64,000 bases of DNA from Bordetella parapertussis (GTDB lineage: Bacteria > Pseudomonadota > Gammaproteobacteria > Burkholderiales > SG8-39). Shown piece by piece: positions 30,240-57,817 of the stretch (position 1 is the first letter of the stretch; each line of letters starts with the position of its first letter). Location: positions 1-64,000 of the forward strand of contig CAMAXP010000022.1 in NCBI GenBank assembly GCA_945862265.1, read 5' to 3'. The notes beneath the pieces were generated by a model. The model searched no databases, was not told the DNA's origin, and worked only from the letters and a program-made list of their open reading frames with translations. The position numbers and the translations under genes were made by a program.

Positions 30240-31616
30240 TTACTTGCTGCCCCACGGCTTGATCGCGGCCTTCAACTGCTTGTAGCCGTCGAGGTACTTC
30301 GGGCGCTTGCCGCCGTAGACCTTGTCGAAGATTGCGAGCTGGTCGTCGAGCCACTTGGCGAGTTCGGCGTTGCCGGGGTTCGCCGCCTTGTAGGCTTCGT
30401 TGACCAGCACGAAGTGGATGCGCGGGTCGTAGGGCTGCTTGGTGCCGCCCTCAGTCTCATCGCCCGCCAGGAGGCGCAGCAGCATCGCGTCGGCCGAGCC
30501 GAGCGTCTGTTCGTAGATCGGCTCGCCCACCACGCGGTACATGACGCTGGTCATGTCCTTGCCGTTCTTCATGGTGAAGCCCATGTCGGACCAGACCTTG
30601 TTCATGTCCGTGCCGGGCTTCACCTTGTCGAGGACCATCTGGCCCCAGGCGCGCAGCACGTCGGGCGCGTCGGCCATCAGATCCGTCAGGCGGTCGCCGT
30701 CGAGGTCAGTCGCGTACACGATCGCGCCCTTCTGCTGGATCATGTCGTGCAGCAGCAGGCCGAAGTTGGTGTCGGAGATGTGTTCGTAGATCTCCCCGCC
30801 CCAGTTCTCCATGCCGGCCTTGAAGTCCTTCGGGAGCAGCGCGACGATCGCGTCGACTTTCTCCTTCTGTTCCTCGTAGGCGTCGACCGAGTACTTGCGC
30901 TTGAGCTCGAACTTGGTGCCTTTCAGCATCCAGCGCACGATGCCGGCGTTGACGGTGTCTTCCTGCGCCTGCGTGGGCTTGGTCGCAACGCGGCCGATCT
31001 GCTTGGTCTCGTGGACCATCTTCAGGAACAGGCGCACCGCGTAGCACATACGGATGCCCGGGGTGTTCATTTCGGAGTGGATCACGCCGGTGGCGGGGTC
31101 GACACCGAACTTCTTCTTGTCCTGCGAGTAGGGCAGGCCGGGCATGAAGCGGATGCTGGTGATCGTGCCGTACGGGCGCACGTTGCAATAGACGCCCGCG
31201 GCGGTGCGCAGCGGCGCGTTGGCCGACTTGCCTGCGACGACGACCTTCTTGCCGCCTTCGTTGACCATGAAGTCGCCGGCGGTGGACCACTTGAGCGAGG
31301 TGTAGTCGAGCTTGCCGAACCAGTCGAGCGATACGAGCTTCGTGTCGTGGCGGAACTGCGCCATCATCGGGACGCCAAGGAAGGGCAGGCCGAGAACGTC
31401 CAGCGCCATCAGCGTGCCGTTCAGCGCGAACATGTCCGTGAAGGCGTGGGCGACGGGTTTCACGCCGCCGGCGGGGTTGCCGCCTTCCCAGATGATCGCG
31501 TCGGTGTGGCCGCGCGGCTGGGCCTTGGAGCGGGTGTAGATGCCGTCGAGCATCTTGAACAGGTCGCCGTTCTGCTCTTCCTGGGCGATCTTCAGCAAGT
31601 CGAGTGTGGTGGTCAT
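30240..31616 (-). CDS. Unrecognised 458-residue cytoplasmic protein
   Basis: I do not recognise this protein. It has no signal peptide and no clear membrane segment. It is fairly hydrophilic and Lys/Asp/Met-rich, and codon use matches its neighbours. Visible stretches are IIWEGGNPAGGVKPVAHAFT (about 41-60), NVRPYGTITSIRFMPGLPYS, HSEMNTPGIRMCYAVRLFLK, YATDLDGDRLTDLMADAPDV and VYGGKRPKYLDGYKQLK near the end. The DLDGDRLTD segment resembles a metal- or calcium-binding loop, but this is weak. It is a single-gene unit with its own strong-looking promoter (TATAAT at 31661-31666) and a terminator after it, which suggests substantial expression. A metabolic enzyme is the most likely class. Confidence 0.8.
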   Translation of the reverse strand: MTTTLDLLKIAQEEQNGDLFKMLDGIYTRSKAQPRGHTDAIIWEGGNPAGGVKPVAHAFTDMFALNGTLMALDVLGLPFLGVPMMAQFRHDTKLVSLDWFGKLDYTSLKWSTAGDFMVNEGGKKVVVAGKSANAPLRTAAGVYCNVRPYGTITSIRFMPGLPYSQDKKKFGVDPATGVIHSEMNTPGIRMCYAVRLFLKMVHETKQIGRVATKPTQAQEDTVNAGIVRWMLKGTKFELKRKYSVDAYEEQKEKVDAIVALLPKDFKAGMENWGGEIYEHISDTNFGLLLHDMIQQKGAIVYATDLDGDRLTDLMADAPDVLRAWGQMVLDKVKPGTDMNKVWSDMGFTMKNGKDMTSVMYRVVGEPIYEQTLGSADAMLLRLLAGDETEGGTKQPYDPRIHFVLVNEAYKAANPGNAELAKWLDDQLAIFDKVYGGKRPKYLDGYKQLKAAIKPWGSK

Positions 31617-31689: not shown

Positions 31690-32817
31690 TTACACCGGCA
31701 TGAGCTTCAGGACGAATATCCGCTCGGCCATCCATACGGCTGCCACCAGGGCGATCAACACCGATCCGCCCAAGAAAATCATACGCCGGTAGGCCCAGCT
31801 CCGGCGCAGCCCGTAGGCCAGCGGCAGGAAAAGGGCGACGATGGCCAGTTGCCCGGCCTCCACGCCCAGGTTGAAACCCACCAGGGCCAGCACCAGTGCG
31901 TCACGGGGCAGGCCGAGGTCGGCCAGGACGCTCGCGAACCCGAATCCGTGGATCAGGCCGAACCCGAAGGCCACCGCCCAGCGCCGGCCGGCGACGACGG
32001 GCCAGAGGTTGTTCAGCGCGGCGAGCACGACGGATAGCGCAATGGTGGATTCGACCAACCGGGACGGCAGGGCAATGACCGAGAGCGCCGCCAGGCTGAG
32101 GGTGATCGAATGGGCCAGCGTGAATGCGGTCACGATCCGAAGCACGTCCCAGAACACCGGCGCGAAGCGGTCCGCCGGCTCCCAGCCGCGCTTGCCGAGG
32201 AAGAATACCGCCGGCAGCAGCAGGCAGACCAGGAACAGGATGTGGTCGAACCCGATCAGGATGTGCCAGATGCCTTCGCGGCCGTAGTCGAGGAACTGCC
32301 CCAGCCGCGAGGCGGCCGCCAGCGAGAACTTCTGCTTCGGCCGCTCCGGGCCGAGGATTGCTGTCAGGGTGCCTGTGCCGTGCTGGATGCGCAGCAGCCC
32401 GCGATGCGAGGGGTCGAGGTCGAAGAAGAGGTTGTAGTCGACCTCGATCTCGCGGGGGGAAGTGTTCCCATCGCAGTCGACCGAAAAGCGCATGACTTCG
32501 TAGGCGCCGTCGCTGTGTTCGTCGACCAGGTGTTCGGTCGGCGCTAGCCGGCATCGCAGGCCGTCGGCCGAGAGCGACAGCCGCGCCAAGGCATAAGCCG
32601 AGATTTCCGCGTGCTTTGCGCGCAATTCGCCCCAGGTGATCTCGCCGTTCCCGTCGGCGTCCAGGCCGATCGCGAAGTCGAGGTCGCGCAAGGCGATGTC
32701 CCATTGCCCGTGCAACCTGCCCCCCTCCGACATTACGGCCAGGTAGCTGTCGCTCGGCTTGTGCGCATGGGCGAACTGGGCGGCCAAAGCGAGAAGGAGT
32801 GCGACCAGGATCCTCAT
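31690..32817 (-). CDS. HupE/UreJ-like membrane protein with an EF-hand-like loop
   Basis: A 375-residue protein with a Sec signal (MRILVALLLALAAQFAHAH). Residues 20-170 form an extracytoplasmic domain that contains DADGNGEITWGE (about 53-64), a good match to a 12-residue EF-hand calcium loop. The C-terminal half has about seven membrane segments with GFDHILFLVCLLLPAVFF, TAFTLAHSITLSLA and FGFGLIHGFGFASVL, the histidine-containing helices of the HupE/UreJ_2 family. Relatives are linked to nickel or cobalt transport, but no hydrogenase or urease genes are here. It overlaps the TPR gene by 4 bases, so the two products probably act together. Confidence 0.82.
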   Translation of the reverse strand: MRILVALLLALAAQFAHAHKPSDSYLAVMSEGGRLHGQWDIALRDLDFAIGLDADGNGEITWGELRAKHAEISAYALARLSLSADGLRCRLAPTEHLVDEHSDGAYEVMRFSVDCDGNTSPREIEVDYNLFFDLDPSHRGLLRIQHGTGTLTAILGPERPKQKFSLAAASRLGQFLDYGREGIWHILIGFDHILFLVCLLLPAVFFLGKRGWEPADRFAPVFWDVLRIVTAFTLAHSITLSLAALSVIALPSRLVESTIALSVVLAALNNLWPVVAGRRWAVAFGFGLIHGFGFASVLADLGLPRDALVLALVGFNLGVEAGQLAIVALFLPLAYGLRRSWAYRRMIFLGGSVLIALVAAVWMAERIFVLKLMPV

Positions 32818-33998
32818 TTCGGCAGGGCCCTGGCTTTGTCCGCGAGCCGGCGCATGGGGGCGTCCTCGAACCCGGACTGCTCCAGCCAGTCGAGCGCAGG
32901 TTGGGCCCCCGCGCGATCTCCTGCAGCGAGGGCCGCTTCGAGAAGGATCGCGACGTCCCGCGGTTCACGCTGGGATTTCCAGTTCTCCGTGGCCAGTTTG
33001 AGCGCGCCGGCCGCATCCTTCTTGAGGTGCAACCGGAAGCGGGCTTCTTCCTGCAGGTGCAACGGCTCGCCCCGCATCCCTGCCTCGGAAAAGCGGTCAT
33101 CGAGGGCCTGGATGCGCTGGGCGGCGGACGGCCGGTTCAGTGCCTTTTCTGCGTAGGCGAGGCGCAGCAGCAGCGTATCGGAGCGGGCCCAGTCCTTCAG
33201 GAGCACGGCGACCTCCCCGGAGCGGTTCTCGTCGAGCAGGAAGTCCGAGTAGGCCGCCAGCAGGAAGTTATCCGTCACGCCGAGTGCGAGGGCATCACGA
33301 AAGTGTTTTTCGGCGACCTGTGGTTGCCCGAGCCTGCGGGCCATCTCCGCGAGGCGGGTCAGGTTCCATAGCCGCGACTCCGGTGTGGCGTCCGGCCTTC
33401 GCTGAAGTGTGGTGATGAGCCGATCGTAGGCCGCGCGGGTCTTGCCGGTGGTGGCGTCGACATAGGCGAGGCAGCCGGTCGAAAAGAGGTCGCTCGCATG
33501 CGCAGCCATGGCCGTGCATTCCCCCCTGGCCTCGGAGTAGCGGGCCTGCACCATGAAAATCGCAGCCCGCCATGAGTGCGCCTCGACGTTTGCCGGATCT
33601 GCCGCAAGCGCTGCGGCGAGGTCCTCAAGGGCGCCGGAAAAATCGTGCTTGTACTGCCGCAGCAGCGCCCGGATCACGCGCAGGCGCGGTGGAACCGAAG
33701 TGCCCGCCCAGGGGCGCAGCGCAGCTTCGGCATAGCCGACGTATCGGGGGTCGCCCTCCGCCATGGCGAGGTCGAAATAGCGCCGCGCGAGCGCTTCTCC
33801 AGTGGCAGGATCGTCCGGGCGCGCCGCTGCCGCTGCCCTCAGCGTGCGGAGTTCACGCGCGACCGGGTCTCCCGGCTTGAGCGGAAGCCGTTCCAGGACC
33901 TGGTCGCCGGTGGCCGGGACGAAGGGCGCGGCGAGGGCCGTGCCCAGAGCAAGGCAAAGGAGGCCGGCGCAGGCCGGGCGAAGGAGGTGCAGGGGCAT
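32814..33998 (-). CDS. Exported TPR-repeat protein
   Basis: A 394-residue protein with a signal peptide (MPLHLLRPACAGLLCLALG, cleavage near ALA). It is built of tetratricopeptide-like repeats, for example DFSGALEDLAAALAADPANV (about 116-135) and QPQVAEKHFRDALALGVTDN (about 225-244). It overlaps the hupE-like gene (ATGA), and this pair recurs as far as I recall in other proteobacteria. A scaffold role in the periplasm for the HupE-like protein is an inference. Confidence 0.8.
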   Translation of the reverse strand: MPLHLLRPACAGLLCLALGTALAAPFVPATGDQVLERLPLKPGDPVARELRTLRAAAAARPDDPATGEALARRYFDLAMAEGDPRYVGYAEAALRPWAGTSVPPRLRVIRALLRQYKHDFSGALEDLAAALAADPANVEAHSWRAAIFMVQARYSEARGECTAMAAHASDLFSTGCLAYVDATTGKTRAAYDRLITTLQRRPDATPESRLWNLTRLAEMARRLGQPQVAEKHFRDALALGVTDNFLLAAYSDFLLDENRSGEVAVLLKDWARSDTLLLRLAYAEKALNRPSAAQRIQALDDRFSEAGMRGEPLHLQEEARFRLHLKKDAAGALKLATENWKSQREPRDVAILLEAALAAGDRAGAQPALDWLEQSGFEDAPMRRLADKARALPK

Positions 33999-34032: not shown

Positions 34033-34062
34033 TTGTGGAATCCAATCCCTCTGTCGTAGAAT
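34033..34062 (+). promoter_or_regulatory. Probable sigma-70 promoter of the first lysine-rich peptide gene
   Basis: TTGTGG at 34033-34038 and TAGAAT at 34057-34062 are separated by 18 bases, a good match to the consensus. The start codon lies about 140 bases further on, leaving a long leader with GC-rich inverted repeats such as GGCCGGCGTACCGGCC (34111 region). A long structured leader before a 54-codon gene is unusual and may regulate it. Confidence 0.5.
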
Positions 34063-34208: not shown

Positions 34209-34373
34209 ATGACCAAGTTCCTGTCGTTCGTCATCGCCGCCATGTTCGCCGCCGTGAGCTTCAGCGCCCTGGCAGCCGACGACAAGAAGGGCGAAGTGAA
34301 GTCGAAGGACGGCAAAGCCGTCACGACGAAGGATGGCAAGAAAGTCGAGACCAAAGAAGAAAAGAAGAAGTAA
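34209..34373 (+). CDS. 54-residue exported lysine-rich peptide, paralogue 1
   Basis: A small secreted protein. The first 22 residues are a signal peptide (MTKFLSFVIAAMFAAVSFSA, then LA). The mature part is about 32 residues, nearly all Lys, Asp, Glu, Gly, Thr and Val, with DDKKGEVKSKDGKAV and ending KEEKKK. The start ATG has AGGAG 9-13 bases upstream. A closely similar gene follows at 34576. Base composition is more A-rich than surrounding genes because of the lysine codons. No known family comes to mind. A charged, intrinsically disordered periplasmic peptide is what the sequence shows; function unknown. Confidence 0.75.
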   Translation: MTKFLSFVIAAMFAAVSFSALAADDKKGEVKSKDGKAVTTKDGKKVETKEEKKK

Positions 34374-34575
34374 TTTTCACCTGCTGCGCCCTGACCGGGC
34401 GTGGCGGGCGCACGAAAATAGTGTAAGATGCTGTTATAAATAATAAAAATGCGTACCTGGGATGAAAGTCTGCGTCTGACGCTTGGCTGTCAACCGAGGG
34501 GAGTGAAGCGCGTTATCTGGACTCGGCCGGTTCGCTTGCCGATTTAAACCAACAACCCTGCTTAAGGATTTCAAA

Positions 34576-34734
34576 ATGCAAAAGCTGCTGTCGATCGTTA
34601 TCGCTGCCATGTTCGCCTCGGTCTCCTTCACCGCTATCGCCGCCTCGCACGCCGGCGCGCAGAAGGACGACAAGAAAATGGAAAAGAAGGCTGACGCCAA
34701 GAAAGACGACAAGAAAGAAGAAAAGAAGAAGTAA
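34576..34734 (+). CDS. 52-residue exported lysine-rich peptide, paralogue 2
   Basis: This gene has the same architecture as the one at 34209. MQKLLSIVIAAMFASVSFTA is a signal peptide with strong similarity to the first copy (shared IAAMFA-VSF core), then a mature tail of repeating KKDDKKEEKKK type. The start has AAGGA about 9 bases upstream. A TATAAAT (34434-34440) about 140 bases ahead of the start may belong to its own promoter, so the leader is again long. An intrinsic terminator follows directly. The duplication with conserved signal and diverged charged tail suggests both are expressed and selected. Confidence 0.75.
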   Translation: MQKLLSIVIAAMFASVSFTAIAASHAGAQKDDKKMEKKADAKKDDKKEEKKK

Positions 34735-34752
34735 GCTTTCTTCTCTTTCTGG

Positions 34753-34786
34753 AAAAGGCAGGGTAAGTTCTCCCTGCCTTTTTTAT
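34753..34786 (+). terminator. Intrinsic terminator of the second lysine-rich peptide gene
   Basis: A stem of GGCAGGG (34757-34763) with CCCTGCC (34772-34778), extended by flanking A/T pairs, is followed by six T. It lies 20 bases after the stop at 34734 and before the DUF192 gene. Confidence 0.9.
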
Positions 34787-34802: not shown

Positions 34803-35240
34803 ATGCGCATCGCCAGACTCTTCGCCCTCCTCCTTCTGTGCCCGGTCCTTGCAGTTGCCCAGCAGCTCCCGCGGACCGAATTGACGGCAGGCGTCCACCT
34901 GATCCGTGCCGAGGTCGCCGACAACTTCGTCACCCGCATGCAGGGGCTCATGCACCGGACGTCCATGGGCGCGAATGAAGGCATGCTGTTCATCTTCGAC
35001 GAGCCCGGCATCCAGTGCATGTGGATGAAGAACACGCTGATCCCGCTGTCGGTGGCCTATATCGCGGACGACGGGTCGATCGTCAACATCGAAGACATGA
35101 AGCCCCAGACCGAGGATTCGCACTGCACGAAAAAGCCCGTGCGCTTCGCGCTCGAAATGAATCAGGGCTGGTTCGCGTCCAAGGGCCTGCGCCCGGGCGC
35201 AAAATTACGCGGGCTGGAGAAGTACAAGCCCCGCCAGTGA
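34803..35240 (+). CDS. Exported DUF192 family protein
   Basis: A 145-residue protein with a signal peptide (MRIARLFALLLLCPVLAVAQ). The DUF192 core is clear: VEVADNFVTRMQGLMHR-type segment (AEVADNFVTRMQGLMHRTSM), GMLFIFDEPGIQCMWMKNTL, PLSVAYIADDGSI and ALEMNQGWFASKGLRPG. The family is widespread and of unknown biochemical role. It starts shortly after the preceding terminator and is convergent with a decayed transporter gene. Confidence 0.9.
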   Translation: MRIARLFALLLLCPVLAVAQQLPRTELTAGVHLIRAEVADNFVTRMQGLMHRTSMGANEGMLFIFDEPGIQCMWMKNTLIPLSVAYIADDGSIVNIEDMKPQTEDSHCTKKPVRFALEMNQGWFASKGLRPGAKLRGLEKYKPRQ

Positions 35241-57357: not shown

Positions 57358-57478
57358 CTTGGAAAGCCCGGCCGTGGCCACCTGTGCTGGTCAGTGGAAA
57401 ATTATCGTCCCGCCATTCGCGATGCGCAAGCCGGATTTATCACTGCGTCCCGCACGGCGGTAAAGAATGGTAAAGGGA

Positions 57479-57817
57479 GCCGGCCGGTAAGCCGGGTTCT
57501 GTCGGGAAGATACCCGTAAGGGCACCTTCCCGTAACAGCCATTCCTCTGGACTGTGAATTACTTCACAGTTCTAGCCACCTACCCGCAAGCTTGGTCGAG
57601 CCGACCTCAGGCGCTTGCCTATTTGGTGTTGCTCCGGATGGAGGTTGCCGCGTTTCACCCCCGCCCAAGCTTGCGCCTAGACGGGACTCGTCTCTGTGGC
57701 CCTATTCGTCACCTCACGGTGCCCGGCCGTTAGCCGGCATCCTGCTCTGCGGAGCCCGGACTTTCCTCCAGTCGCGGGGTTGCCCCCGTGATCCAGCGGC
57801 TGTCTAGCCGACTCCCG
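57479..57817 (-). ncRNA. rnpB: RNase P RNA
   Basis: Read on the minus strand, the 5' part contains GGAGGAAAGTCCGGGCTCC-like (positions about 57752-57772) and the 3' part ends with CGACAGAACCCGGCTTAC (about 57488-57505), both universally conserved in bacterial type-A RNase P RNA. The 5' end pairs as GGGAGTCGGCTAGACAGC near 57800-57817. It is the catalytic RNA that matures tRNA 5' ends. The ends are estimated to within several bases. Confidence 0.92.

Follow-up and report, generated by a model that had tools for sequence, protein, structure and literature searches.

Two short tandem genes in the 64,000-nucleotide stretch of DNA analysed here (the window) encode highly charged peptides predicted to be exported, and on balance we favour the view that they are outputs of an envelope-stress regulon run by an ECF sigma factor whose gene is followed by those for DUF3619 and DUF3106 proteins. 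On the same reading the peptides would act as cationic, disordered periplasmic protectants in the manner of Escherichia coli Asr. We also think it rather probable that the Burkholderiales ECF gene holds its cognate promoter within its own coding sequence, where three invariant codons (CGT CAA ... CGT) carry it and from where it would drive the anti-sigma gene; that the same promoter lies upstream in other orders; that its outputs are small, exported, disordered Lys/Ala/Glu-rich proteins; and that the whole constitutes a widespread and hitherto undescribed envelope-stress system. The interest lies in the link from the peptides to a sigma factor and in the promoter hidden in the sigma factor gene.

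Tandem genes for exported, charged peptides

The tandem 54- and 52-residue open reading frames of an earlier, sequence-only reading are present on the forward strand, gene 1 at 34209-34373 and gene 2 at 34576-34734. The first 22 or so residues of each product form a hydrophobic signal peptide, which closes with an A-x-A motif. That reading called the two signal peptides near-identical, which is slightly strong: they are indeed alike, but 16 of the first 22 residues agree. Its description of the tails as almost only Lys, Asp and Glu is likewise overstated, since these residues make up 62% (gene 1) and 67% (gene 2) of the tail after residue 22, the remainder being mostly Ala, Gly, Ser, Thr, Val, Gln and Met, with one His. 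Each tail bears a net charge of +4; that of gene 1 contains a repeated KDGKxV motif and is kept in orthologs of the genus. Being short, charged and without a hydrophobic core the peptides are likely to be unfolded, their export and disorder both following from sequence only. No Pfam family was matched at E≤0.01 by any of nine peptides tested; the Pfam and NCBIfam matches that did appear were all below cut-off and look like chance matches to signal peptides. Taken alone, the peptides are ordinary low-complexity exported proteins.

Comparison of the genome containing the window (G000) with a congener (G004) gave 4, 2 and 19 differences at codon positions 1, 2 and 3 of gene 1 and 4, 1 and 12 in gene 2, corresponding to dN 0.06 and dS 0.89 for the former and dN 0.06 and dS 0.42 for the latter. 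The ratios are weaker against G002 (dN 0.12 and 0.23, dS 0.78 and 0.53, for genes 1 and 2 respectively), and the comparison of gene 1 between G007 and G032, with 3 differences, is uninformative. Because the substitutions fall at third codon positions and dN is low, both genes are most likely translated and under purifying selection, the tails included.

A protein search of the window's own genome and its relatives found a match at E≤0.1 in 24 of 61 genomes. A DUF192 neighbour is present in 14 of the 18 stretches fetched around the matches, so that, counting the window, 15 genomes are DUF192-linked. The reading frame is kept in 21 members; the signal peptide columns are highly conserved, with tails of 17 to 61 residues. 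In the window, the pair sits between a TPR/HupE operon and the DUF192 gene (34803-35240, forward strand; Pfam PF02643), the latter recognised by its linkage as a conserved downstream neighbour. The divergent TPR gene (32814-33998, reverse strand) and the HupE/UreJ_2 gene that adjoins it (31690-32817, reverse strand) were assigned by Pfam and synteny, and several DUF192-linked loci have in common these divergent genes along with downstream urate-oxidase-N and SOD genes. Conservation in relatives, whose absence the sequence-only reading would have taken as refutation, is thus seen in the 24 genomes, the shared synteny and the purifying selection. The same reading thought duplicate copies unusual, a claim that holds to a modest degree, with a tandem pair in six of the 15 DUF192-linked loci.

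Two other features of the window may be mentioned. The gene beside HupE (30240-31616, reverse strand) encodes a 458-residue protein that is 86-96% identical in three relatives and matches no Pfam family at E≤0.001. An ordinary RNase P class A RNA lies at 57472-57815 on the reverse strand (242.8 bits), the sole Rfam match at gathering threshold in the whole window.

A promoter-like element in the peptide leaders

The leaders of gene 2 and its relatives have in common the sequence GTCAACC-N14/15-GCGTTAT, 84-111 bases 5' of the ATG. A structured, riboswitch-like RNA leader was our first idea, dropped in favour of a promoter because the spacing varies by one base only, an ECF promoter already mapped has identical hexamers and the sites turn up again at a sigma factor operon. 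The mapped promoter is that of the Acinetobacter ECF sigma factor SigAb, for which mutagenesis gave a -35 of GTCAAC and a -10 of CGTT separated by 17 bases, a spacer of 16 being tolerated and one of 18 about three-fold weaker (PMC12153292). In the window, the predicted -35 GTCAAC (34489-34494), equal to the SigAb hexamer, and the predicted -10 CGTTAT, with core CGTT (34511-34516), stand on the forward strand before gene 2 with a spacer of 16, so that SigAb-type hexamers with a spacer of 16 or 17 are found at 34489-34516.

This element was absent from the sequence-only reading, which instead gave each gene a leader of about 140 bases following a probable -10 box. The boxes are there, TAGAAT at 34057-34062 and TATAAAT at 34435-34441, about 146 and 135 bases 5' of the respective ATGs, but gene 2 also has the nearer ECF-type element. 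A promoter scan found no consensus sigma-70 pair at either box. Given GTCAAC-N16-CGTTAT, we predict that transcription of gene 2 starts near 34522-34525 with a 5' UTR of about 51-54 nt and not 135, while a leader of about 140 bases could still exist if transcription also began upstream. For gene 1 the likelier promoter is the sigma-70-like one with TAGAAT at 34057, part of a weak-consensus TTGTGG-N18-TAGAAT read from the sequence at 34033-34062 (forward strand); TAGAAT is common to G000, G004 and G002.

Several predicted folds accompany the two genes on the forward strand. Close to where the gene 2 transcript is predicted to begin is a short hairpin (34523-34542), and a hairpin following the -10 is similarly positioned in many relatives' leaders; covariation is not claimed for it since, among eight leaders picked for a clear stem, one pair changes on both sides and 96 of 500 shuffles equal the paired percentage. 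Just 3' of gene 1 is a strong GC-rich stem-loop without a T run (34380-34408; z -3.99 for a 46-nt stretch). At about 34750-34785 a terminator-like hairpin bearing a T run (fold z -4.9) matches the terminator said earlier to close the pair; a simple terminator scan did not list it. As a separate observation, the hairpin segment after the -10 is tandemly duplicated in the leader of the first peptide gene of G007 (L018/L056), its sister genome G032 having one copy. Upstream of the G001 peptide gene (L012, 809-1165) there is a cspA thermoregulator match of 53.3 bits, below the cut-off of 78.

The element was assessed quantitatively by scoring 21 leaders from the 15 DUF192-linked loci against GTCAAC-N16/17-CGTT, with 300 shuffles each. 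The best match had no mismatch in 14 of the 21 and one mismatch in two, and for each of these 16 leaders none of the 300 shuffles was as good. None of the 15 loci is without the element, each having one or more peptide gene copies preceded by a version with no more than one mismatch. The other five leaders (gene 1 of G000, G004 and G002; copy 2 of G007 and G032) show 3-5 mismatches, no better than shuffles, and the leaders of three homologues unlinked to DUF192 (G015, G022 contig C35 and G011) lack the element.

Across 15 genomes the exact pattern was matched 29 times, as against 8 for a reversed control pattern, and several sites outside the DUF192 loci stand upstream of further small exported proteins, whose tails are of Lys/Ala/Pro type (L049, L052, L057, L068, L073). 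A sequence model built on 20 sites (R1), run on four genomes of the genus, recovered the DUF192-linked sites and also placed a site before a second peptide gene of G000, on contig C2, MTKQKLIIALIASAFSASVFAQ...KKAKKSS, with counterparts in G002 and G001, and another before an exported protein in G002 and G004; its remaining, weaker matches are inside coding sequence or before unrelated genes. Twelve named genomes yielded 26 matches, six of which precede proteins with a signal peptide and a Lys/Ala tail (Trinickia fusca, Paraburkholderia nodosa, Burkholderia multivorans, Ralstonia pickettii and, twice, Herbaspirillum robiniae), with four inside an ECF gene, one before a cytochrome c and most others without a clear target. 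The 30 loci kept from a scan of 150 genomes divide, on our own classification, into eight inside an ECF gene before DUF3619, nine before an exported protein and 13 without a clear target, the exported group including Lys/Ala-tail, Ala/Thr/Pro-rich, cytochrome c, CusF-like and helix-hairpin-helix proteins.

The element was also noted in three genomes before genes resembling class I cytochrome c (L152, L154, L244) and, in G032 and G007, before a lipoprotein-like gene (MKRTIRQTIGLFG...; L066, L067). Similar sites, which could be chance, lie just 5' of related genes in two genera, MRLPNAEKAEI... (L051, G020) and MILPNAAPAHVAKEK... (L093, G002).

The element at a sigma factor operon

Among six Sigma70_r4_2 matches in G000 four are ECF-like genes, one of which (contig C32) is followed in a single cluster by DUF3619 and DUF3106; sigma-70 region 4, DUF3619 and DUF3106 score 58.2, 100.1 and 122.7 bits there, each over its Pfam cut-off. 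A PDB search with the ECF profile returned nothing at the strict threshold of 1e-10. DUF3619 is present in 106 of 150 genomes sampled from the order Burkholderiales, and in all 26 of the 30 DUF3619 loci that could be parsed GTCAAC-N17-CGTTA is found inside the ECF gene; the four unparsed genomes (G055, G134, G199, G091) have the exact element just before DUF3619. All 80 named Burkholderiales loci (the best 80 of 589 relatives) again have it within the ECF gene and ahead of DUF3619, 127-206 nt (median 127) from the next open reading frame, with no further site in these 80 loci.

Three columns, and no others, proved free of synonymous variation in a codon alignment of 78 of these 80 ECF genes (L230 and L240 being left out): an Arg column fixed as CGT, a Gln column as CAA and a second Arg column as CGT, which between them supply the letters of both hexamers. 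Variation is seen in the Arg codon directly 3' of CAA and in the Tyr codon that follows the final CGT. Elsewhere, at most columns, Arg is written mainly as CGC or CGG and Gln as CAG; the loci are related and so do not amount to independent trials.

For comparison, DUF3106 loci were taken from the remaining orders of the class; the best 30 loci, less G000, left 29. In the 19 that could be parsed, 10 having failed, the equivalent codons are free: the first Arg is CGT in 2/19, the Gln CAA in 5/19 and the last Arg CGT in 4/19. The 29 loci have 16 elements in the orientation of the genes, where mononucleotide shuffles predict 0.13, and one in the opposite orientation. Twelve of the 16 are directly upstream of the sigma factor open reading frame, a minimum since the 1500-base flanks fell short of some sigma gene upstream regions; three are downstream of DUF3106 and one is elsewhere. 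Because it lies upstream of the sigma gene in other orders and inside the ECF gene in Burkholderiales, the element is, on this sequence evidence, tied to the ECF family.

Downstream of DUF3106, a second GTCAAC-CGTT site was seen in L272 (near 2952), L288 (near 2765) and L291 (near 2966), in each case ahead of a gene whose product is lipoprotein-like, carries GLTDAEGDF or SLTDAEGDF and is possibly DUF4382.

A proposed regulon and its alternatives

Regulation of the peptide genes is well supported by sequence, and we infer that the motif is recognised by the sigma factor of the DUF3619 cluster. DUF3619, the predicted membrane anti-sigma, would hold the sigma factor at the membrane, with DUF3106 as a predicted periplasmic partner that senses or stabilises there. 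Envelope stress would free the sigma factor (C32), which would then transcribe gene 2, and at least one copy per DUF192-linked relative, from GTCAAC-N16/17-CGTT. In Burkholderiales, the copy of the promoter inside the sigma coding sequence leads us to propose negative feedback, whereby active sigma factor would raise the level of its own anti-sigma. The products, predicted to be small, Sec-exported, Lys-rich polyampholytes, may serve as abundant unfolded protectants or charge buffers like E. coli Asr. Stress protection, one of the roles suggested in the sequence-only reading, thereby gains indirect support from the ECF promoter-like site at the peptide genes; metal buffering and effects on membrane or LPS charge are other possible actions of the peptides.

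Metal binding was another of the suggested roles, and the peptides could be periplasmic buffers for copper or other metals within a metal-stress regulon. SigAb responds to copper (PMC12153292), one site precedes a protein that reads as CusF-like (L157) and a superoxide dismutase gene is nearby. The SigAb signal may, however, not carry over, and the CusF-like case is a single locus. Cys is absent from 20 of 21 tails and His occurs at most once in any of them; the case for metal binding by the peptides is weak, and we consider this explanation unlikely.

The element might instead be the site of some other regulator, or the promoter of a different ECF sigma factor of G000, for example that beside an MsrP-like gene (C51). 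There are indeed four candidates in that genome and the pairing of sigma factor with element rests on sequence, yet the spacing and both hexamers are those of the mapped ECF promoter, the sites are found at the ECF-DUF3619/DUF3106 operons themselves, either ahead of them or within, and a degenerate pattern found no site near the remaining ECF loci of G000. Furthermore, the motif excess tracks DUF3619: the 106 genomes with it hold 184 motif and 76 control matches, compared to 27 and 37 in the 44 genomes without it (Fisher p 3e-5 between the groups), an association that in part counts the intragenic element, many matches being inside the ECF gene. A different regulator or sigma factor accordingly seems distinctly improbable.

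Constraint at the protein or mRNA level, unconnected with any promoter, could also have preserved the element inside the ECF gene, the RQREAFLLRY residues of sigma region 4 being themselves nearly invariant. Synonymous codon choice, however, is invariant solely where it spells the two hexamers, the neighbouring codons being variable, and homologues from other orders with similar residues vary in codon and have the element upstream instead; we judge this explanation very unlikely.

The transcripts might be mainly small RNAs with incidental peptides, the initial assumption for Xanthomonas sX6 and what is reported of the SigAb-dependent SabS. This is suggested by their short length and structured (folded) ends, by the 36-bit match of the Rfam sX6 model to the L004 gene (cut-off 40) and by the putative small RNA that SigAb drives (PMC12153292), but it is most improbable in view of the third-position bias and low dN in the compared pairs, the frames kept in 21 members and the detection by mass spectrometry of a protein encoded by sX6 itself (PMC5559785).

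The regulon favoured here would, for most of the genomes sampled from the order (106 of 150 with DUF3619), name a sigma factor and its promoter, a feedback loop and a class of effectors, all predicted, around DUF3619 and DUF3106, two families of unknown function. It would also be a clean case of intragenic promoter hexamers fixing the codons of the very sigma factor predicted to read them. A further suggestion is that many of the exported low-complexity peptides that now go unannotated act as stress effectors and are not annotation noise. In the open-access papers searched, most subscription journals lying outside them, we found no paper on DUF3619 or DUF3106, nor, among the matches listed, any description of an ECF-DUF3619-DUF3106 regulon.

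Comparison with known systems

The best NCBIfam match of gene 1 is ExtJ (NF040942), spanning the signal peptide and most of the tail at 29.2 bits against a cut-off of 52.5; unlike ExtJ, the peptide genes have no selenite/tellurite operon among their identified neighbours. Near the peptide genes, Rfam at an E-value threshold gave sub-cut-off matches alone, of which Xanthomonas sX6 (RF02225) was the informative one. Like the genes described here, sX6 is the mRNA of a small protein, and its consensus reads as a signal peptide with a charged tail. Its scores, 36 bits in L004 and 17 in the window, are below the family cut-off of 40, as everywhere here; the search matched none of the 61 family genomes at E≤0.001, nor any control genome, and the link to GTCAAC is known for the peptide genes alone.

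The tail of E. coli Asr is Ala/Lys/His-rich, in which respect it resembles the Ala/Lys members of the regulon, and its gene is regulated by two-component systems, unlike the ECF control proposed here. To judge by sequence, the peptides would be analogous to Asr as small, exported, disordered stress proteins, but the tails in the window are rich in Lys, Asp and Glu, with little or no His across the family, and the Pfam search of nine peptides (E≤0.01) assigned none to the Asr family. Asr is described as an intrinsically disordered periplasmic chaperone that at pH 4.4 accounts for about 2% of ribosome footprints (PMC10746267).

Close parallels exist with SigAb (PMC12153292). The hexamers GTCAAC and CGTT with a spacer of 16-17 are alike, as is the operon order of sigma factor, small membrane anti-sigma and periplasmic helical protein, here compared from the paper's text only; there AabA is proposed to hold SigAb at the membrane and AabB to sense or stabilise in the periplasm. 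The SigAb promoter is upstream of its gene, unlike that of the Burkholderiales ECF factor, and its reported direct targets, sigAb, relA and the small RNA SabS, are not exported peptides as in the regulon proposed here. SigAb was termed Acinetobacter-specific; on the sequence evidence presented here, its promoter sequence now appears to recur with the ECF family across the class, beyond Acinetobacter.
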